This document shows positions 3,192-10,639 of a DNA stretch of 10,639 nucleotides, piece after piece. Location: NCBI GenBank assembly GCA_934569425.1, contig CAKTKM010000043.1:1-10639 (forward strand). The letters run 5' to 3'. Position 1 is the stretch's first letter. Each line of letters opens with the position of its first letter. Made by a program: the position numbers and the translations under genes. The notes beneath the pieces are model-generated. The model was not told the origin of the DNA. It ran no database searches and saw only the letters and a list, made by a program, of their open reading frames with translations. This DNA comes from an uncultured Oscillospiraceae bacterium (GTDB lineage Bacteria; Bacillota; Clostridia; Oscillospirales; Oscillospiraceae).

Positions 3192-3226
3192 ATGAAATAC
3201 TTTTGATTTTGGCGCGGGGGTCGCGT

Positions 3227-5092
3227 ATGAAAGAGTTTATTGCGGGACAGTTTGATATTGCTGTGATCGGCGCGGGTCACGCCGGGATCGAGGCGGCATT
3301 GGCCGCGGCGCGGCTGGGACTGGAGACGGTGTGTTTTACCATCAACCTGGACGCCGTGGGCAACATGCCCTGCAATCCCGCCATCGGCGGCACGGGAAAG
3401 GGACATCTGGTGCGGGAGCTGGACGCGCTGGGCGGCGAAATGGCCAAAGCGGCGGACAGGGCCTGTATTCAGTACCGGATGCTGAACCGCGGCAAGGGGC
3501 CTGCCGTATGGTCGCTGCGGGCGCAGGCCGACCGGCGGGCGTATCAGGCGGTAATGAAGCACACGCTGGAGCGCCAGAGCCATCTGACGGTGCGGCAGGG
3601 CGAGGTGGTGGACATCCGGGCGGAAAACGGCCATGTGACGCAGGTGGTACTGCGGACAGGGGCAGTGTTTCTCGTAAAAGCCGTCATCGTCTGCTCCGGC
3701 ACCTATCTGCGCGGGCGTACCATCATCGGCGAGTGCATTGAGGAAAGCGGCCCGGACGGTATGCATGCCGCTGCGGCACTGACAGAGCGGCTGCGGGCGC
3801 TGGGTCTGCCCCTGCGGCGGTTCAAGACCGGCACGCCGCCGCGGATCAACGCCCGAACCGTGGACTTTTCCAAAATGGAGCTTCAGGAGGGGGATCCCTC
3901 TCCCCTGCCCTTCAGCTTTGAGACGGCGCAGGCGCCGGAGAACCGTGCGGTGTGCTACCTGACCTATACCAACGAGGAGACCCACCGGATCATCCGGGAG
4001 AATCTGGATCGCAGCCCCATTTACAGCGGCGTCATCGAGGGCATAGGGCCGCGGTACTGCCCGTCCATCGAGACAAAGGTGGTGCGGTTTGCCGACAAGC
4101 CCCGGCACCAGCTGTTCATCGAGCCTATGGGGCTGGACACGGAGGAGCTTTATATTCAGGGGTTTTCCTCCTCTCTGCCGGAGGAGGTGCAGGTGGAAAT
4201 GCTGCACACCATCCCTGGCTTGGAAAACGCGGTGATGACACGGCCTGCCTACGCCATCGAATACGACTGCGTCGATCCGCTGGCGCTGAAGCCTACGCTG
4301 GAAACCAAGGCGGTGGCGGGACTATACGGCGCGGGACAGTTCAACGGCTCCTCCGGTTATGAGGAGGCGGCGGTGCAGGGCTTTGTGGCAGGTGTCAACG
4401 CAGCACTGGCGCTGCTGGGCCGGGAGGCACTGGTGCTAAAGCGCAGCGAAAGCTATATCGGCACTCTTATTGACGATCTTGTGACGAAGGGAACGGAGGA
4501 GCCGTACCGCATGATGACCAGCCGCTCGGAATACCGGCTGGTGCTGCGGCAGGACAACGCCGATCAACGACTGACGGCCATCGGCCACCGGATCGGCCTC
4601 GTCAGCGACGCACGTCTGGCAGCGGTGGAGGAAAAATACGCCGCCGTGGCGCGGGAGATCCGGCGGCTGGAGCGCACCGGCATCGCGGGAAGCGCAGCAC
4701 TGAATGCGCTGCTGGAGCAGCGCGGCACCGCGGCTGTCAGCGACGGATGCCGGCTTATCAATCTGCTGCGGCGGCCGCAGATCCGCTACGCCGACCTGCG
4801 CCCCTTTGACGCCGGTGCGCCGGAATTGACGGCGGACGTGATCGAACAGGTGGAGATCTCGGTAAAATACGAGGGGTACATCCGGCGGCAGGAAAAGCAG
4901 GTGGCGGAATTTGAGCGGCTGGAGCAGCGGCTGCTGCCGGAGGATCTGGACTATGCCCACATTCAGGGGCTGCGGCTGGAGGCACGGGAGAAGCTGAGCG
5001 CCATCCGCCCCCGCAGTCTGGGACAGGCAGGGCGGATCTCCGGCGTGTCCCCCGCCGACATGGCGGCGCTGATGATCTATCTGGGAAAATAA
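3227..5092 (+). CDS. mnmG: tRNA uridine-5-carboxymethylaminomethyl modification enzyme MnmG (GidA)
   Basis: A 621-aa protein, the usual family length. With MnmE, MnmG installs the carboxymethylaminomethyl group (or aminomethyl group) on wobble U34 of certain tRNAs, using FAD, NADH and methylene-tetrahydrofolate. Visible are the N-terminal dinucleotide-binding motif VIGAGHAG (13-20), [20 protein letters not shown] (46-65) with Cys49, [12 protein letters not shown] (274-285) with Cys278, and the conserved C-terminal segment [19 protein letters not shown] that binds MnmE/tRNA. The two cysteines correspond to the functionally important Cys47 and Cys277 of E. coli. The start ATG at 3227 is preceded by a G-rich stretch (GCGGGGGT), a weak ribosome binding site. 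mnmE is not next to it; instead mnmG heads an operon with a cyclase-family hydrolase and a MurT/GatD-like pair. Confidence 0.97.
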
Positions 5093-5104
5093 GGAGGGTG
5101 TTTT

Positions 5105-5731
5105 ATGCGGGTTTACGATCTTACCCATACGATTCAAAATGACATGCCGGTGTATCCCGGCACGGAGCAGCCGAAGCTGACCACCGCCTGCACCATTGAG
5201 CAGGTGGGGTACCGGGAGACGCTGCTGCACATGTTCTCCCATACCGGCACCCACATGGACGCGCCGGCGCACATGCTGCCCCACGGGGCGCCGCTGGACA
5301 GCTACGCAGGGGACAAATTCGCCGGCACCGCTCTGGTGGTGGACTGCCGGGGGCAGGAGGCCATTACGCTGCCCCTGCTGCGGTGCTATGACCTGACCGG
5401 CGTGGATTTTGTATTGTTCTGCACAGGATGGGACAAGAAATGGGGCAGCCCCGACTACTATGAGGGCTTTCCCTGTCTGACGGCGGAGGCGGCAGCCTAT
5501 CTGGCTTCCCTGCCCCTGAAGGGCGTGGGGGAGGATTCCATCTCGCTGGATCCCTGCGACAGCGTGGACTTCCCCAATCACATCACCCTGATGCGCGCGG
5601 ACTTTGTCAACACAGAAAACCTGACGGGACTGGACGCGCTGATCGGGCGGCGGTTCACCTTTGTGACGCTGCCGCTGAAATTTGAGAATTCCGATGGCTG
5701 CTCCTGCCGCGCCATCGCAATGGAGGCATAA
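5105..5731 (+). CDS. Cyclase/kynurenine-formamidase-family metal-dependent hydrolase
   Basis: A 208-aa protein of the cyclase family (KynB-like amidohydrolases), which hydrolyse amide or ester-type bonds using a bound divalent metal, usually zinc or manganese. The family signature HTGTHMDAPAH occupies residues 46-56, giving metal ligands His46, His50 and Asp52 plus His56. The N-terminal LTHTIQNDMPVYPG and the C-terminal VNTENLTGL and PLKFENSDGCSCRAIA segments also fit the family. It starts 12 bp after mnmG with AAGGAGGG overlapping the mnmG stop, and ends 3 bp before the MurT-like gene, so it is co-transcribed. No tryptophan-degradation gene is nearby, so kynurenine formamidase activity is not implied. 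Its substrate is unknown; the link to the MurT/GatD-like pair is suggestive only. Confidence 0.88.
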   Translation: MRVYDLTHTIQNDMPVYPGTEQPKLTTACTIEQVGYRETLLHMFSHTGTHMDAPAHMLPHGAPLDSYAGDKFAGTALVVDCRGQEAITLPLLRCYDLTGVDFVLFCTGWDKKWGSPDYYEGFPCLTAEAAAYLASLPLKGVGEDSISLDPCDSVDFPNHITLMRADFVNTENLTGLDALIGRRFTFVTLPLKFENSDGCSCRAIAMEA

Positions 5732-5734
5732 GAC

Positions 5735-7123
5735 ATGGGTAAGCTGCGGTTTCTGTTGGCGCTTTGGCTGGGCAAGCTGTCCATTCCGGCGCTGAAGATC
5801 ACACGACATAACGGCACGGACTTTCCCGGCGCACTGGCGGTGCGAGTGTGTCCGGACTTTCTGAAATATGTGGAAAAACCGAAAAAGATGATCGCTGTCA
5901 CCGGCACCAACGGCAAAACCACCGTCAGCAACATGCTGGTGGATATTCTGGAGGCGGAGGGACACCACGTTCTCAGCAACCGGGCCGGCAGCAACATCAC
6001 CTCCGGTATTTCTACCGCCTTTATCCGCAACTGTGACCTGCTGGGGCGGGTAAAAAAGTGCGATATGGCGGTGCTGGAGATCGACGAGCGGTCGGCGCCG
6101 AAGATCTATCCCCATGTGCGCCCCGATTATATCCTGATCACCAACCTGTTCCGGGACTCCATCATGCGCAACGCCCATCCCGGGTATATTGCCGATATTC
6201 TCAGCCGGAACCTGCCCCGTGAAAGCAAGCTGATCCTCAACGCCGACGATCTGATCTCCTGCGGCGTGGCCGGGGAAAACGAGCGCTGCTATTTCGGTAT
6301 CGGACGGCTGCCCACCGACGTGACGGACTGCGTGAACCTGCTGAACGATATGCGGATCTGTCCCCGCTGCGCGGGAAAGCTGCGGTATGAGTACCGGCGG
6401 TATCACCACATCGGCCACGCCGTGTGCGAAAACTGCGGCTTCCACTCGCCGGAGGCGGACTATCTGGCAGAGCAGGTGGATCTGAAGGCCCGCACCATGG
6501 TGGTGCGGGAAAAGGACGGTGTGACCTATCCTTATGCGCTGATCACCGACAGTCTTTTCAATATCTACAACATGATGGCGGTCATTGCCGCGCTGCGGCA
6601 GCTGGGGCTGTGCCACGAGACCATCCGGAAGCGGTTTGCCGGAACGAAGATCCTGGAGAGCCGGCTTTCCGAGGAAAAGATCGGCGGCGTAAACGTGATC
6701 ATGCAGATGTCCAAGGACAAAAATGCACTGGCGTGCAGCCGGAACTTTGACTATATCCAGTCCAAGCCCGGGCGCAAGGAGCTGCTGGTGATGATGAACT
6801 GCATGGGTGTATCAAAGAACTGGTCGGAAAATCCCAGTTGGATGTACGACACGGACTTTGAATTTCTGAACCATGACGACATCGTGCAGCTGGTGTGCGC
6901 AGGCCCCCGCGCCCGGGACTATAAGCTGCGGCTGCTGCTGGCGGGGATCGACGAGAAGAAGATCTTCTTGGAGGATGACGAATTCAAGGCGCTGGACAAG
7001 CTGTACCTGACGCCGGGGGATGACGTGTATATCCTCTACGGTGTGGACGGCACACCGCTGGCCTTCCGCGTGAAGGAAAAACTGAAGGAAAAGCTGCTGG
7101 CGAAGGGAGGACAGGACGCATGA
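5735..7123 (+). CDS. murT: MurT-like Mur ligase (lipid II isoglutaminyl synthase subunit homologue), divergent
   Basis: A 462-aa Mur ligase-family protein. MurT activates the D-Glu carboxylate of lipid II with ATP, and its partner GatD supplies ammonia from glutamine. Seen here: P-loop VTGTNGKTT (55-63), SNRAGSNITSGISTAF (81-96), EIDERS (115-120), NLFRD (137-141), LNADD (168-172), a four-Cys zinc ribbon (Cys209, 212, 231, 234) and a C-terminal DUF1727-type domain. The ribosome binding site GGAGG lies 8 nt upstream. Two regions diverge from the S. aureus protein as I recall it. NLFRDQMDR reads NLFRDSIMRN. The DTSW segment, which holds Asp349 of the glutaminase triad, reads NPSW with Asn366 in place of Asp, and the preceding Asp-rich DGRD stretch is lost. 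The ligase core looks functional but the coupling to a glutaminase does not. Confidence 0.88.
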   Translation: MGKLRFLLALWLGKLSIPALKITRHNGTDFPGALAVRVCPDFLKYVEKPKKMIAVTGTNGKTTVSNMLVDILEAEGHHVLSNRAGSNITSGISTAFIRNCDLLGRVKKCDMAVLEIDERSAPKIYPHVRPDYILITNLFRDSIMRNAHPGYIADILSRNLPRESKLILNADDLISCGVAGENERCYFGIGRLPTDVTDCVNLLNDMRICPRCAGKLRYEYRRYHHIGHAVCENCGFHSPEADYLAEQVDLKARTMVVREKDGVTYPYALITDSLFNIYNMMAVIAALRQLGLCHETIRKRFAGTKILESRLSEEKIGGVNVIMQMSKDKNALACSRNFDYIQSKPGRKELLVMMNCMGVSKNWSENPSWMYDTDFEFLNHDDIVQLVCAGPRARDYKLRLLLAGIDEKKIFLEDDEFKALDKLYLTPGDDVYILYGVDGTPLAFRVKEKLKEKLLAKGGQDA

Positions 7124-7830
7124 GGGCGGAGATTCTGTTTCCGGAGGTATGCAACCTCTATGGAGATCTGCAAAACATCTACTACTTGAAGCGGTGCTGC
7201 CCGGAACTGGAGATCGTGGAGACTGATCTCAGCTCCCGGCCCGCGTTTTTGGACGGGGATGTGGCACTGGTGTTTCTGGGTTCCACCACTGAACAGGGGC
7301 TGAAGCTGGCCGCGGATGCCCTGCGGCCTTACCGGGAGGCCATCGCGGAGAAAGTCGATGGCGGGCAGCTGTTTCTGGCCACCGGCAACGCGCTGGATAT
7401 TCTGGGCTGCGTCATCGACAGCGACACGGCGCCGTCCATCGAGGGACTGGGACTGCTGGACACCCGCGCCGAATACCACATGATGCAGCGGCACAACAGC
7501 TATTATGTGGGGAAATTTGAAGGCATGGACATTGTGGGCTTCAAGAGCCTGTTTGGACACTCCCATGGTACCGGCGCGGCGCTGTTCGACACCACGAAGG
7601 GCGTGGGACGGGACGGCGCCGAGGGAAGCGGCGAGGGCTTCCGCCGGGGTGGACTGATGGCCACCTATCTCATCGGGCCGCTGCTGATCCTGAATCCGCC
7701 CCTGTGCAAGTGGCTCCTGCGGCAGATGGGAGCAGCGTCTGATACGCTGGCCTTTGAGGATGCCGCCATGGACAGCTACAAAAAGCGCTTGGCGGAGTTT
7801 CTGGAGCCGGGGCGGAGCTGGAAATATTAA
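7120..7830 (+). CDS. gatD: GatD-like class I glutamine amidotransferase, catalytic residues missing
   Basis: A 236-aa homologue of GatD, the glutaminase subunit that delivers ammonia to MurT. Its ATG overlaps the stop of the MurT-like gene (ATGA), and GGGAGG lies 9 nt upstream, so the two are made in step. The N-terminal CNLYGDLQN (11-19), LEGLG-like IEGLGLLD (107-114), IVGF (138-141) and TYLIGPLLILNPPL (182-195) place it in the family. The nucleophile motif, ICGGYQ in S. aureus (Cys94), reads ATGNALDILG, with Gly89 at the Cys position. YLHGP (His189) reads YLIGP, with Ile185 at the His position. The glycine-rich oxyanion segment FIGGGSDREQ reads VFLGSTTEQ. Arg124 may correspond to the glutamine-binding Arg128. 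As read, it cannot be a standard glutaminase. The reading frame is otherwise intact, so it is a divergent gene rather than a decayed one. Confidence 0.87.
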   Translation: MRAEILFPEVCNLYGDLQNIYYLKRCCPELEIVETDLSSRPAFLDGDVALVFLGSTTEQGLKLAADALRPYREAIAEKVDGGQLFLATGNALDILGCVIDSDTAPSIEGLGLLDTRAEYHMMQRHNSYYVGKFEGMDIVGFKSLFGHSHGTGAALFDTTKGVGRDGAEGSGEGFRRGGLMATYLIGPLLILNPPLCKWLLRQMGAASDTLAFEDAAMDSYKKRLAEFLEPGRSWKY

Positions 7831-7888
7831 AAACCGGTCTACTTTGGAGCACGAAAACAACAAGGCGTGCCGTAAGGAGGAGAATACG

Positions 7889-8404
7889 ATGAAAAAAGCG
7901 AAGCCTTATCAACTTATTCTGATTGCTTTCCTTCTCGTCATTGCCGCTGTGGCAGGAACCCTTGCCTACAACCGATGGGTTGCGAACCACACTGTACCCG
8001 GTCCCGACTCTCTGGAAGGTCGTTTACAGGGCGTTGGCGATTGGGCCGAAGGCGAGCAGGGATTGGAACTGCTTGGCGCGTATACCTTTGTCACCACGGA
8101 TGAGATCGACACGGCTCGCATCAAAAAAGTATATGCCTATCAGCTTTCGGACGGCTCTGTTTACGGCTGGCTTTCCTTTCAACAGGAGCTGCAGGAGGAT
8201 CAGTGGGAGGAAGAGAGCGCGGTACCCGGCACCGATGCCAACTACGTCAAGGTGCTGCTGGAAGCAGAGGCGCAGCATTGGGAAAAAGACTTGTTTTTGG
8301 GTCACTATAGTCTGAGCGGGGTGTTTTTTGCCATCAGCGACAGCCCCGAAACCTTAGCGAGTTATTTTCTCAGCTGCACAGAGGGCAACTACTATCGCGG
8401 CTGA
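7889..8404 (+). CDS. Membrane-anchored hypothetical protein, 171 aa
   Basis: I do not recognise this protein. The ATG at 7889 has an ideal AGGAGG 8 nt upstream, which rules out the longer in-frame start inside gatD. A short basic N-terminus (MKKAKPYQ) precedes one strong hydrophobic helix at about 8-26. About 145 hydrophilic residues, rich in Glu, Asp, Trp and Tyr, follow and should lie outside the cell. There is no lipobox Cys, so the helix is either an uncleaved anchor or a signal peptide. The soluble part contains repeated aromatic segments such as VYAYQLSDGSVYGWLSFQ and HYSLSGVFFAI, compatible with a beta-rich domain. The gene is less GC-rich by eye than the mnmG operon and lies 58 bp after gatD. 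I see no clear promoter in that gap, so it may be read through from upstream. Confidence 0.75.
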   Translation: MKKAKPYQLILIAFLLVIAAVAGTLAYNRWVANHTVPGPDSLEGRLQGVGDWAEGEQGLELLGAYTFVTTDEIDTARIKKVYAYQLSDGSVYGWLSFQQELQEDQWEEESAVPGTDANYVKVLLEAEAQHWEKDLFLGHYSLSGVFFAISDSPETLASYFLSCTEGNYYRG

Positions 8405-8599
8405 GCCGGATCGCGCCGCAGGGCGGACAGCGTTGTCTGCCCCCGCAAAACATCCGCAACACAGCACACCCGTTTTGCGGCGCAGAACGGGTCTGTTGGC
8501 GCGGGTCTACGCTGCGCAGACTGATTTCCGAAATGGCGGGGTAGACATTTGGGGCCGCTTCGCGGCATACTGGCGTCACAACGAAAGGAGTGTGACCGT
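8405..8599 (+). other. Hairpin-rich gap between the 171-aa gene and the XRE regulator
   Basis: No gene is supported in these 195 bp. Several inverted repeats follow each other: GGGCGGACA (8421-8429) with TGTCTGCCC (8434-8442), one G/T pair; CCCGTTTTGC (8469-8478) with GCAGAACGGG (8482-8491), one G/T pair; GTCTG (8491-8495) with CAGAC (8517-8521); and GCCGC/GCGGC at 8554-8566. None is followed by a run of T, so they are not typical terminators. I could not find a convincing promoter for the downstream regulator. The region could be a structured leader RNA or a degenerate palindromic repeat. Confidence 0.4.
8575..8596 (+). promoter_or_regulatory. Inverted repeat enclosing the ribosome binding site of the XRE regulator
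   Basis: GTCACA (8575-8580) and TGTGAC (8591-8596) flank ACGAAAGGAG, so the Shine-Dalgarno sequence lies exactly in the 10-nt loop. The arrangement could be a protein operator or an RNA hairpin affecting translation. The arms are only 6 bp, so chance is possible. Confidence 0.35.
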
Positions 8600-9529
8600 A
8601 TGGATACCATAAAAACCGGCGGATATCTGGCGGCGCTGCGAAAGAGCGCGGGAATGACCCAGCAGGAGGTAGCCGACCGCCTCGGCGTGTCCAACAAGAC
8701 CGTCAGCAAATGGGAAAGCGGCGGAGGGTTCCCCGACATTGCCGTTCTGCCGGCATTGGCGGAGCTGTACGATGTGACGGTCGATGACCTGCTGGCCGGA
8801 GAAACGGTGCGGCACAACACCGGTGGACAGCAGGTAGCGGACTACCTTGCCCAGCGGTACGGCCTGCGGTGGCGGATCGGCTATGCAGCGGCGGCGCTGT
8901 GTCTGCTGGCGGCAGCACTGTGGCGTTCATCCGACTGGACCTGGCTGCTGCTGGCAGGCAGCGGGGCAGCGCTTTGGATCGGTTGGGGCCGCTGCGGCAA
9001 AGAAGCTCTGCGGGTTCGGCTTTTGATGCTGTTTCCACTGGCGGCGGCGCTGCTGTTCCTGCTGCTGGGAAAGTGTTTTCCCGCTTCGCTGATACAAAAC
9101 AGCCTGACCGCCGAGTCGGCAGACTACTTCAGCAGTGTCCTGCTGGCCAGCTATTTTGTAGAGCATGCGGTATGGGATCTGACACTGCTTCTGCTGCCGG
9201 GGCTGTACCTTCTGGCACGGCTCACCCTGCGGCGGTACGGCGATGAAGCGGCGCTGCTGAGCCCCGCGGCTTTTCGCTGGGTGCTGGCCGGCTGGATCGC
9301 ATCGCTGATCGTAGAGATTCCCCGTTGGCTGGTGGTGACGCCCCGCATGGTGGTATATCTGGAAGATCCTGTATTTGGCGGCGCTGCGCTGCAAGCCGGC
9401 TATGTCAACGCCGCACGGTGGTTTGCGGTGCTGCGGTGGGGTGTGATCGCGGTGACGCTGGTACTGGCGGCGCTGGCGGAGCGGAAGGCCACCGCGAAAC
9501 AGCCGCCGGAGCGTAGCGAAGCTGCGTGA
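8600..9529 (+). CDS. XRE-family helix-turn-helix regulator fused to a six-helix membrane domain
   Basis: A 309-aa protein. Residues 8-63 form a Cro/C1-type DNA-binding domain: LAALRKSAGMTQQEVADRLG, then VSNKTVSKWESGGGFPDI, the usual recognition helix, and the LAELYDVTVDDLL tail seen in Firmicute XRE regulators. After a short linker come about six hydrophobic helices (about 93-108, 113-129, 140-157, 179-207, 225-246 and 274-293), so the DNA-binding domain would be tethered to the inner face of the membrane. Such HTH-plus-membrane proteins are common in Clostridia, but their signals are mostly unknown. The start at ATG 8600 is set by AAAGGAG 9 nt upstream. An inverted repeat surrounds this ribosome binding site. 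The gene ends just before a bidirectional terminator. Its regulated genes may include the adjacent 171-aa membrane protein, but this is only positional. Confidence 0.87.
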   Translation: MDTIKTGGYLAALRKSAGMTQQEVADRLGVSNKTVSKWESGGGFPDIAVLPALAELYDVTVDDLLAGETVRHNTGGQQVADYLAQRYGLRWRIGYAAAALCLLAAALWRSSDWTWLLLAGSGAALWIGWGRCGKEALRVRLLMLFPLAAALLFLLLGKCFPASLIQNSLTAESADYFSSVLLASYFVEHAVWDLTLLLLPGLYLLARLTLRRYGDEAALLSPAAFRWVLAGWIASLIVEIPRWLVVTPRMVVYLEDPVFGGAALQAGYVNAARWFAVLRWGVIAVTLVLAALAERKATAKQPPERSEAA

Positions 9530-9610: not shown

Positions 9611-10639
9611 TTACGCCAGATCGGGGAAGTTCTTCACCACCGCGGCACAGCGGGGGCAGAGCTCCGGATGCTGGCTGTCGCTGCCGACAGAGGGCAGCAC
9701 CTTCCAGCAGCGCAGACACTTGCTGCCGGAGGCGGGACGAACCGTGACGGACAGGGCATCGCCCACCTCCACGCGCACCTGAGAGACGATCAGCAGATCG
9801 GCCAGCGCGGCGCCATCCATCCGGACAAGGAAGGCATCCTCGGCGGGAACCACCAGGTCTACCTCTGCCTCCAGACTCTTGCCGATGGTCTTGGCGGCAC
9901 GGGCGGTCTCCAACTCACCGTTGACGGCGTTGCGCAGGGCGGCGATGCGGCTCCACTTGGCCATTTCGTCGGCGGAAAGGGCATACGCGGTATAGGGCTG
10001 CACCATCTCATTGAACAGGACATTGCGGGCATCGTCGCTGCTGCGGTGAGGCATGGCCAGCCAGATCTCATCACAGGTGAAGGCCAGAATGGGAGCAAAC
10101 AGGCGGGTCATGGCGTCCAGGATCAGGAACAGGGCGGTCTGGGCGCTGCGGCGCTCCAGCCCATCGGCGGCGTCGCAATACAGACGATCCTTCAGAATAT
10201 CAAAGTAGAAGGAGCTGAGATCCACCACGCAGAAGTCGTTGACCATATGGGACACCACATGGAACTCATAGTTGTCATAGGCAGCGAAGACCTTGGCGAT
10301 CAGATCGTTCAGACGGGTGACCGCCCACTTATCCAGCGGCAGCATAACGGCGCTCTGCACCAGATGGTCGGCGTCGAAGCCCACCAGATTGTCCAGGCAG
10401 AACTTGGCGGTGTTGCGGAACTTCAGATAGTTCTGGCTGAGCTGCTTGAAGATCTCATCGGAGCAGCGGACATCCACATGGTAGTCGGCGCTGCCGGCCC
10501 ACAGGCGCAGCAGATCCGCACCGTACTTGTCAAAGATCTCGGCGGGATCCATACCGTTGCCCAGGGACTTGTGCATGGCCTTGCCCTCGCCGTCCACCGT
10601 CCAGCCGTGGGTCACGCACTCTTTGAAGGGAGCGCCGCG
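9611..10639 (-). CDS. ileS: Isoleucyl-tRNA synthetase, C-terminal part
   Basis: The last 342 residues of a protein that should be roughly 930 aa; the open frame continues past the right edge and the start is not in the window. It charges tRNA-Ile with isoleucine. The fragment opens just before the KMSKS loop (GAPFKECVTHGWTVDGEG, then AMHKSLGNGMDP), which reads AMHKS rather than KMSKS. Then come the end of the catalytic domain (LRLWAGSADYHVDV), the anticodon-binding helical domain (KFRNTAKFCLDNL onward), and a C-terminal zinc ribbon with CLRCW and LCPRC, four Cys as in the zf-FPG_IleRS domain. This selects IleRS over the related ValRS and LeuRS. Any T-box leader would lie outside the window. 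Confidence 0.96.
   Translation of the reverse strand, partial: RGAPFKECVTHGWTVDGEGKAMHKSLGNGMDPAEIFDKYGADLLRLWAGSADYHVDVRCSDEIFKQLSQNYLKFRNTAKFCLDNLVGFDADHLVQSAVMLPLDKWAVTRLNDLIAKVFAAYDNYEFHVVSHMVNDFCVVDLSSFYFDILKDRLYCDAADGLERRSAQTALFLILDAMTRLFAPILAFTCDEIWLAMPHRSSDDARNVLFNEMVQPYTAYALSADEMAKWSRIAALRNAVNGELETARAAKTIGKSLEAEVDLVVPAEDAFLVRMDGAALADLLIVSQVRVEVGDALSVTVRPASGSKCLRCWKVLPSVGSDSQHPELCPRCAAVVKNFPDLA

Follow-up and report, generated by a model that had tools for sequence, protein, structure and literature searches.

A MurT/GatD-like pair of the Oscillospiraceae that lacks the glutaminase triad and belongs to a Cys-less clade

The window (the whole stretch of DNA analysed, 10,639 nucleotides) encodes a MurT/GatD-like pair in which all three residues of the glutaminase triad are replaced, and this Cys-less pair forms a clade with its relatives and is not an oddity of the window. 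We see about an even chance (0.5) that the pair is a glutaminase-free complex that amidates the D-glutamate of lipid II with ammonia and has the GatD-like protein as its obligatory partner. Judging by the residues kept and lost, the Cys-less pair should act as a MurT-type ligase and has the GatD fold, while lacking the residues by which a GatD glutaminase is recognized. S. aureus and S. pneumoniae both depend on MurT/GatD for viability, and the minimal NOD2 ligand includes D-isoglutamine (PMC6085368, PMC3266927, PMC11382707); the family of Bacillus subtilis, by contrast, has almost no murT-gatD (PMC6085368). The features discussed below are as follows.

3203..5092, + strand: mnmG, which lies upstream of such loci in some members of the clade
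5105..5731, + strand: gene of the PF04199 cyclase family; 3 bp separate its end from murT
5735..7123, + strand: murT-like gene, Mur ligase subunit of 462 amino acids
5903..5920, + strand: MurT P-loop GTNGKT, kept (alignment, codons)
6089..6091, + strand: MurT Arg119, adjoining Asp117-Glu118 of the Mg/acceptor site; 31 canonical pairs have Ala or Gly here
6176..6178, + strand: MurT His148, in the active-site loop facing GatD; Glu in 31 canonical pairs
6359..6436, + strand: MurT zinc-ribbon Cys 209, 212, 231 and 234, kept (alignment, codons)
6830..6832, + strand: MurT Asn366 (WSEN motif), replacing Asp349 (alignment, codons)
7120..7830, + strand: gatD-like gene, subunit of 236 amino acids with a class I GATase fold without catalytic residues
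7279..7287, + strand: GatD Gly54-Ser55-Thr56, replacing the Gly-Gly-Gly oxyanion stretch (alignment, codons)
7384..7389, + strand: GatD Gly89-Asn90 (TGN motif), replacing Cys94-Gly95 (alignment, codons)
7489..7491, + strand: GatD Arg124, equivalent to S. aureus Arg128 (glutamine capture), kept (alignment)
7672..7674, + strand: GatD Ile185, replacing His189 (alignment, codons)

Reading frames and the former glutaminase site

Both genes are intact frames that overlap by 4 bp (ATGA), with gggagg a short way 5' of the gatD-like start, and both are under purifying selection (dN/dS between the window and the related locus L001 is 0.102/0.619 for GatD and 0.046/0.519 for MurT). The predicted folds of both subunits are intact and confident, and the GatD-like protein was recognized as having the GatD fold. 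The MurT-like protein scores 85.7 bits against MurT_C of Pfam (cut-off 25) and 37.5 bits against Mur_ligase_M (cut-off 24), while its scores against the NCBIfam equivalogs NF045635 and NF052464 (176.9 and 196.7 bits) stay below the 800-bit cut-off. The matching NCBIfam cut-off for GatD is reached by none of 391 class genomes, Cys-bearing ones included, and therefore the equivalog cut-offs do not discriminate here. Against GATase_3 of Pfam the window GatD scores 25.0 bits, below the gathering score of 27, which is passed by the relatives L013 (28.1 bits) and L067 (38.5 bits). A scan of positions 4900-8100 gave no more promoters and terminators than shuffled sequences did. Further along the window, an HTH_3 regulator with a hydrophobic C-terminal part lies between gatD and ileS (8549-9529), and a relative occupies the same place in L002; the C-terminal part of isoleucyl-tRNA synthetase follows on the minus strand (9611-10615), and the best NCBIfam match of this fragment is the exception model ileS_w_GNAT (271 bits, far below the full-length cut-off).

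Residues were matched by phmmer alignments to the S. aureus chains of the solved MurT/GatD, with the codons checked; statements on how near residues lie to one another are taken from published structures by alignment. The alignments bear out the sequence-only reading, which had proposed that GatD Gly89 and Ile185 and MurT Asn366 replace the triad, that the oxyanion glycines are altered (Gly54-Ser55-Thr56 align on the Gly-Gly-Gly stretch), and that intact frames, the 4-bp overlap, the MurT P-loop and the zinc ribbon are preserved. In the GatD-like protein the catalytic Cys is thus Gly89 and the His of the HGP/HGS motif is Ile185, and the glutamine-capture residue Arg128 is retained as Arg124. 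The suggestion of a possible clade, made in the sequence-only reading, also held: in the window and the best 120 of 707 GatD relatives, or of at least 3942 MurT relatives (E<=0.001; the latter total was counted among the 7997 best candidates only), Gly89, Asn90 and Arg124 of GatD and Arg119, His148 and Asn366 of MurT each occur in 121 of 121 rows. Position 185 of GatD is Ile in 110 of these 121 rows, Thr in 8, His in 1, Leu in 1 and a gap in 1. GatD Glu58, Gly89, Asn90, Arg124, Lys142 and Phe145 are invariant in a 53-row alignment, and conservation is enriched in the pocket, with P 5e-4 for a list of sites that was our own choice.

In the MurT-like protein the P-loop, the acceptor Asn, the Mg-binding Glu/Asp-Glu and the four zinc-binding Cys residues are present, and its share in the glutaminase triad, Asp349, is Asn366. 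In S. pneumoniae Lys59, Asn85 and Asp112/Glu113, which are counterparts of the kept ligase residues, are required for activity (PMC6085368). The functional weight of the MurT Asp is debated: 28% of the activity is left in S. pneumoniae D355A (PMC6085368), and the activity of S. aureus D349N is severely reduced (PMC6113224). The loop that bears the His148 position lies at the GatD face of S. pneumoniae MurT, where an ammonia channel is possible, and the Glu found there at the position of His148 is dispensable, as E143A retains 102% activity (PMC6085368).

Distribution of the Cys-less clade and matching changes in MurT

A contig scan of genomes confirmed 100 loci, 80 of which were kept; a MurT-like frame accompanies GatD in 79 of the 80 (a few are partial), and L046, the one without, begins at the edge of a contig. 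According to their record titles, the carriers are mostly rumen, gut and faecal metagenome bins. The GatD alignment comprised 145 rows (the window, the 80 loci with their additional copies, and two sets of 30 loci, one from each class search, with L081-L110 of the same carrier genomes omitted; L141, L142, L143 and L145 come from the same genomes as L076, L032, L061 and L007), which were sorted by motif and score into 32 canonical, 10 intermediate, 98 main and 5 odd rows. A usable MurT partner was available for 139 of the 145.

The state of GatD is matched by that of MurT. All 31 canonical pairs combine GatD Cys-Gly-His with MurT Ala/Gly-Glu-Asp, and none of them has Arg119 or His148, which go with the Cys-less clade. 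GatD Gly-Asn-Ile/Ser/Leu of the intermediates is found with MurT Arg-His-Glu (eight pairs) or Arg-His-Asp (two). The sequence-only reading had proposed following Gly89, Ile185 and Asn366 across genomes, and 79 of the 93 main pairs do combine Gly-Asn-Ile/Leu/Thr with Arg-His-Asn; the other 14 have Gly-Asn and, where covered, His148, and differ or are gapped at 185, 119 or 366. Among the five odd pairs there is Asp at 119 in two and at 148 in one, and two have Asn at 89 plus Leu and Asn in MurT. The MurT Asp is kept in 2/10 intermediate, 2/93 main and 2/5 odd pairs, and GatD Arg124 in 96/98 main, 10/10 intermediate and 32/32 canonical rows. On quick trees, for which the trait columns were removed in the comparison of canonical, intermediate and main rows, the canonical rows lie on one side of a branch (SH-aLRT 98), and the intermediates (96) and the main plus odd rows (100) are separate.

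The ligase site of MurT is common to these groups. Asn87, Glu115, Asp117, Glu118, Arg145 and Lys327 occur in all covered main, intermediate and canonical rows, and Arg310 in every covered row but one; the P-loop reads GSNGKT in intermediates and GTNGKT otherwise, and the N-terminal P31/G32/A35 and the zinc Cys4 are kept. The interface aromatic residue is Tyr371 in the window, aromatic in 93/93 main rows, Tyr in S. aureus and Trp360 in S. pneumoniae (PMC6085368). Two loops are changed: the K-N-P loop is 2 residues longer in the TGN than in the canonical rows compared, and the loop before Asp349 is rewritten, with WSEN in the main type and ISRKY..E in intermediates.

The sequence-only reading had named Cys97, His120 and His125 of GatD as residues that might have come to stand in the active site, and none of them is conserved throughout the clade. 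Cys97 is a Cys in the window alone (1 of the 121 closest rows listed), and position 120 is His in just 15 of the 98 main rows. His125 is invariant in the 121 closest rows listed and falls to 26/98 in the wider clade (Tyr in 44, Phe in 22). Because conservation is patchy outside the window's subclade, these residues do not look like clade-wide catalysts; a catalytic role of His125 confined to that subclade is conceivable.

In one family represented by 150 genomes, a GatD-like gene is present in 91, Cys-bearing in 37 and Cys-less in 54. The latter divide into 35 of the main type (score of at least 190 bits, six read by residue), 14 intermediate ones (motif TGN, TGT or TGG) and 5 others; the intermediate, other Cys-less and Cys-bearing groups were all read. 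Cys-bearing and Cys-less copies were seen together in none of the 91, and 13.3 such genomes would be expected among the 150 under independence (naive P 2.8e-9, with kinship and genome gaps ignored). MurT_C (PF08353) gave a single match in 45 of the 50 carrier genomes searched and two in 5. The sequence-only reading had raised the question of a second, canonical murT-gatD, and none was found in the carrier, class and family genomes, many of which are metagenome bins; the result covers the matches that were read, which do not include the additional MurT_C copy in each of G022, G027 and G032, the second A2 match in each of G328 and G415, weak extra matches to the canonical GatD profile (e.g. two in G006 and three in G051), a third match in G514 and, in G476, a second match 55 residues long. 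Among the 391 class genomes, all 28 matches of at least 115 bits were read and lack the Cys, the next two matches and the 30 top matches to the canonical GatD profile have it, and of the next 20 read it is present in 16 and absent in 4.

Cys has been lost at least three times on the quick trees, since two genomes nest among the Cys-bearing rows, apart from the TGN clade: G209, which combines a canonical MurT with Gly at the Cys and Ser at the His position of GatD, and G168, in which Gly has replaced the Cys, the GatD His and the MurT Asp remain, and MurT has Asn at position 119 and Thr at 148. G507, G516 and G471, which lie outside the tree sample, resemble these two in lacking the Cys and keeping the MurT Asp. 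The sequence-only reading had described the loss as affecting both proteins at once, and this is true of the window pair but overstated as a history, as some lineages lost the Cys yet keep the MurT Asp, or also the GatD His. Arg119 and His148 are not needed for the loss of Cys as such, because lineages with this loss only do not share them. Further variants were observed: GatD of G471 (L255) has Asp for the catalytic Cys (IDGAYE) and keeps the His, GatD of L181 and L194 (G138) keeps the Cys (VCSGFD) and has Asp for the catalytic His (LDGP) with a canonical MurT, MurT and GatD of G182 (L196) form a single 697-residue open frame with a canonical HGP motif, and P0210 is a chained MurT-GatD open frame without a GatD start.

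The PF04199 cyclase is found at 2/80 related loci, and its adjacency to murT is probably incidental. In P0212 cyclase and MurT share one 682-residue open frame, the junction of which is unlike the end of the window cyclase and may have arisen by a frame shift. In the intermediate subclade the commonest neighbour is an MnmG-like gene (5/20 loci). As mnmG adjoins none of the 16 Cys-bearing loci examined and 1 of 4 Cys-less loci of other types, the TGN pair did not simply replace the Cys-bearing pair at the same site. In three loci (L067 in G042, L070 in G043, and L072) the order is MurT'-GatD' of the RHNSQ/SLGP/TETLTW subtype, an ATPgrasp_ST-cluster gene and MurT-GatD (L067:5519-10735; L070:5532-10789), both GatD copies being Cys-less.

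Possible functions of the Cys-less complex

In the proposed mechanism the MurT-like subunit would bind ATP and the lipid-linked stem peptide and form an acyl phosphate on the alpha-carboxyl of D-Glu, as the kept ligase site suggests. The GatD-like subunit probably no longer hydrolyses glutamine, because the nucleophile, the His, the partner Asp and the oxyanion glycines are gone, and would remain as a structural subunit that the complex cannot do without and as the vestibule by which the amine enters. The amine would be free ammonia or ammonium from the cytosol, which His148 in the GatD-facing loop, together with Arg119, could allow MurT to capture or deprotonate near neutral pH, His148 supplying a base or an ammonium site. 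Lipid II presumably stays the substrate, since MurT retains the acceptor Asn, the acidic pair that binds Mg and the N-terminal Pro-Gly..Ala, and since no genome was seen with both a Cys-bearing and a Cys-less pair; the product would then be D-isoglutaminyl lipid II, as in canonical organisms. In the peptidoglycan table of a review the entries for Oscillibacter and Mageeibacillus are blank (PMC11382707).

On the one hand, this reading is supported by the kept ligase residues, the lack of any family genome seen with both Cys-bearing and Cys-less copies and the repeated loss of Cys, and the closest experiment to the natural Cys-less state is, by analogy, the S. aureus GatD C94G complex, which lost the use of glutamine and kept NH3-dependent amidation of lipid II at pH 8.5, whereas S. 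aureus MurT alone was inactive with any donor (PMC3266927 Table 2). On the other hand, neither S. aureus MurT/GatD nor C94G used ammonia at pH 7.5 (PMC3266927), and this, together with the severely reduced D349N, counts against it. A GatD acting as mere scaffold leaves the conservation of the pocket and the kept glutamine-capture Arg unexplained, and the rewriting of the loop before Asp349 would suit a different amine or a different stem residue. Genes that mark ammonia use do not distinguish Cys-less from Cys-bearing genomes: AsnA is found in 40/54 Cys-less versus 33/37 Cys-bearing genomes, and Amt in 32/54 versus 16/37. Because the pocket, Arg124, the loop and the AsnA/Amt points count against ammonia, the ammonia reading is put no higher than even, and ligation of a different amine to the D-Glu alpha-carboxyl is kept as a serious though less likely alternative, in view of the rebuilt amine side of MurT. 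The amine would most likely be an amino acid, its carboxylate held by Arg119 (and by ISRKY in intermediates), with the GatD-like protein capping the site; the conserved pocket, Arg124 and the rewritten loop would suit a carboxylate-bearing amine at least as well. Arg119 and His148 go with the TGN type, the loop differs by subclade, and a PF14397-cluster ATP-grasp gene lies directly upstream of MurT in 15 of 73 loci with a called upstream gene (three members of the cluster were Pfam-tested). However, no particular amino acid has direct support, Arg124 sits in GatD, away from the MurT acyl site, and the near-canonical MurT of the lineages that lost the Cys only is a better fit to ammonia. That the whole clade is a family of amino-acid ligases with a dead GATase as obligatory cap, its subclades (WSEN, ISRKY..E) differing in the amino acid added, is a more doubtful extension; if true, it would supply a reaction that peptidoglycans with substituted D-Glu require, those with group B cross-links among them.

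An acceptor outside peptidoglycan, e.g. a surface glycopolymer made with an ATPgrasp_ST enzyme, is brought to mind by the tandem second Cys-less pair and the gene between the pairs. Against it stand murC near 8/80 and murE near 1/80 loci (L049), the single MurT_C match of most carriers, the absence of a Cys-bearing copy in any genome seen with a Cys-less one, and the retention of Asn87 and P31/G32/A35, and we consider it unlikely. Glutaminase activity might also persist through a relocated nucleophile, GatD Cys11, which lies in a loop beside the Tyr capping the canonical active site, working with MurT His148. Cys11 is found in 91/98 main and 113/121 closest listed rows, where 32/32 canonical rows have Leu, and His148 is invariant where covered, in a loop that faces GatD in S. 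pneumoniae; but position 11 is Ala, Thr or Ser in 7/98 main rows and Met or Leu in all 10 intermediate rows, which carry His148 nevertheless, and the oxyanion glycines have changed too, making this quite improbable. The loss of all GatD catalytic residues could finally be taken as decay, an explanation that is scarcely credible for intact frames with confident folds, purifying selection, invariant new residues and a main type that occurs in 35/150 family genomes. The invariant replacements, matching MurT switches, purifying selection, confident folds and lack of any genome seen with both states agree with the sequence-only reading of a coherent change of function. It had left four options open; the data lean towards amidation by free ammonia with GatD kept for structure, ligation of a different amine being the less likely reading.

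If the 54 of 91 gene-bearing family genomes do skip glutamine hydrolysis, their nitrogen source, control and possibly peptidoglycan chemistry differ from the textbook, and annotating Cys-less GatD genes as glutamine-hydrolysing is unsafe. The repeated losses provide a graded series found in nature, running from canonical pairs through loss of the Cys alone and loss of both Cys and His with retention of the Asp to the full TGN type, suited to asking how an amidotransferase turns ammonia-dependent.

Comparison with known systems

No earlier description of a Cys-less GatD/MurT clade was found in the literature searched, the coverage of which excludes most subscription papers; the main text of a 2025 pangenome survey that includes MurT/GatD does not contain the words 'cysteine', 'glutaminase', 'active site' or 'ammonia' (PMC11915815). 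The nearest known system is the lipid II isoglutaminyl synthase MurT/GatD of S. aureus, S. pneumoniae and S. pyogenes, with which the window pair shares the operon order, the MurT fold with P-loop and zinc ribbon, the GatD fold, the acceptor Asn, the Mg-binding acidic residues and the glutamine-capture Arg. Unlike it, the window pair has no Cys94, His189, Asp349 or oxyanion Gly triplet, and its MurT has gained Arg119, His148 and the 2-residue insertion in the K..N loop. Pseudomurein peptide ligase type C (6vr7) is related in its Mur ligase fold and has a Cys-rich stretch that can be aligned, and is a weaker match than MurT (E 2e-18 vs 9e-52). By its name, we take it to be an amino-acid ligase.

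The S. aureus C94G mutant has the same Cys-to-Gly change and ammonia-only activity (PMC3266927); however, it needed pH 8.5, whereas the natural pair also lacks the His and the Asp and has a modified MurT. Carbamoyl phosphate synthetase I likewise has a glutaminase domain without the catalytic Cys and takes free ammonia as donor (PMC7657897), although its synthetase is unrelated and ammonia use, which is established there, is put forward for the window pair on the strength of its residues. Single-domain NAD synthetases also use ammonia (PMC3376133), and by analogy these enzymes and carbamoyl phosphate synthetase I are precedents for the change that the Cys-less pair appears to have undergone.
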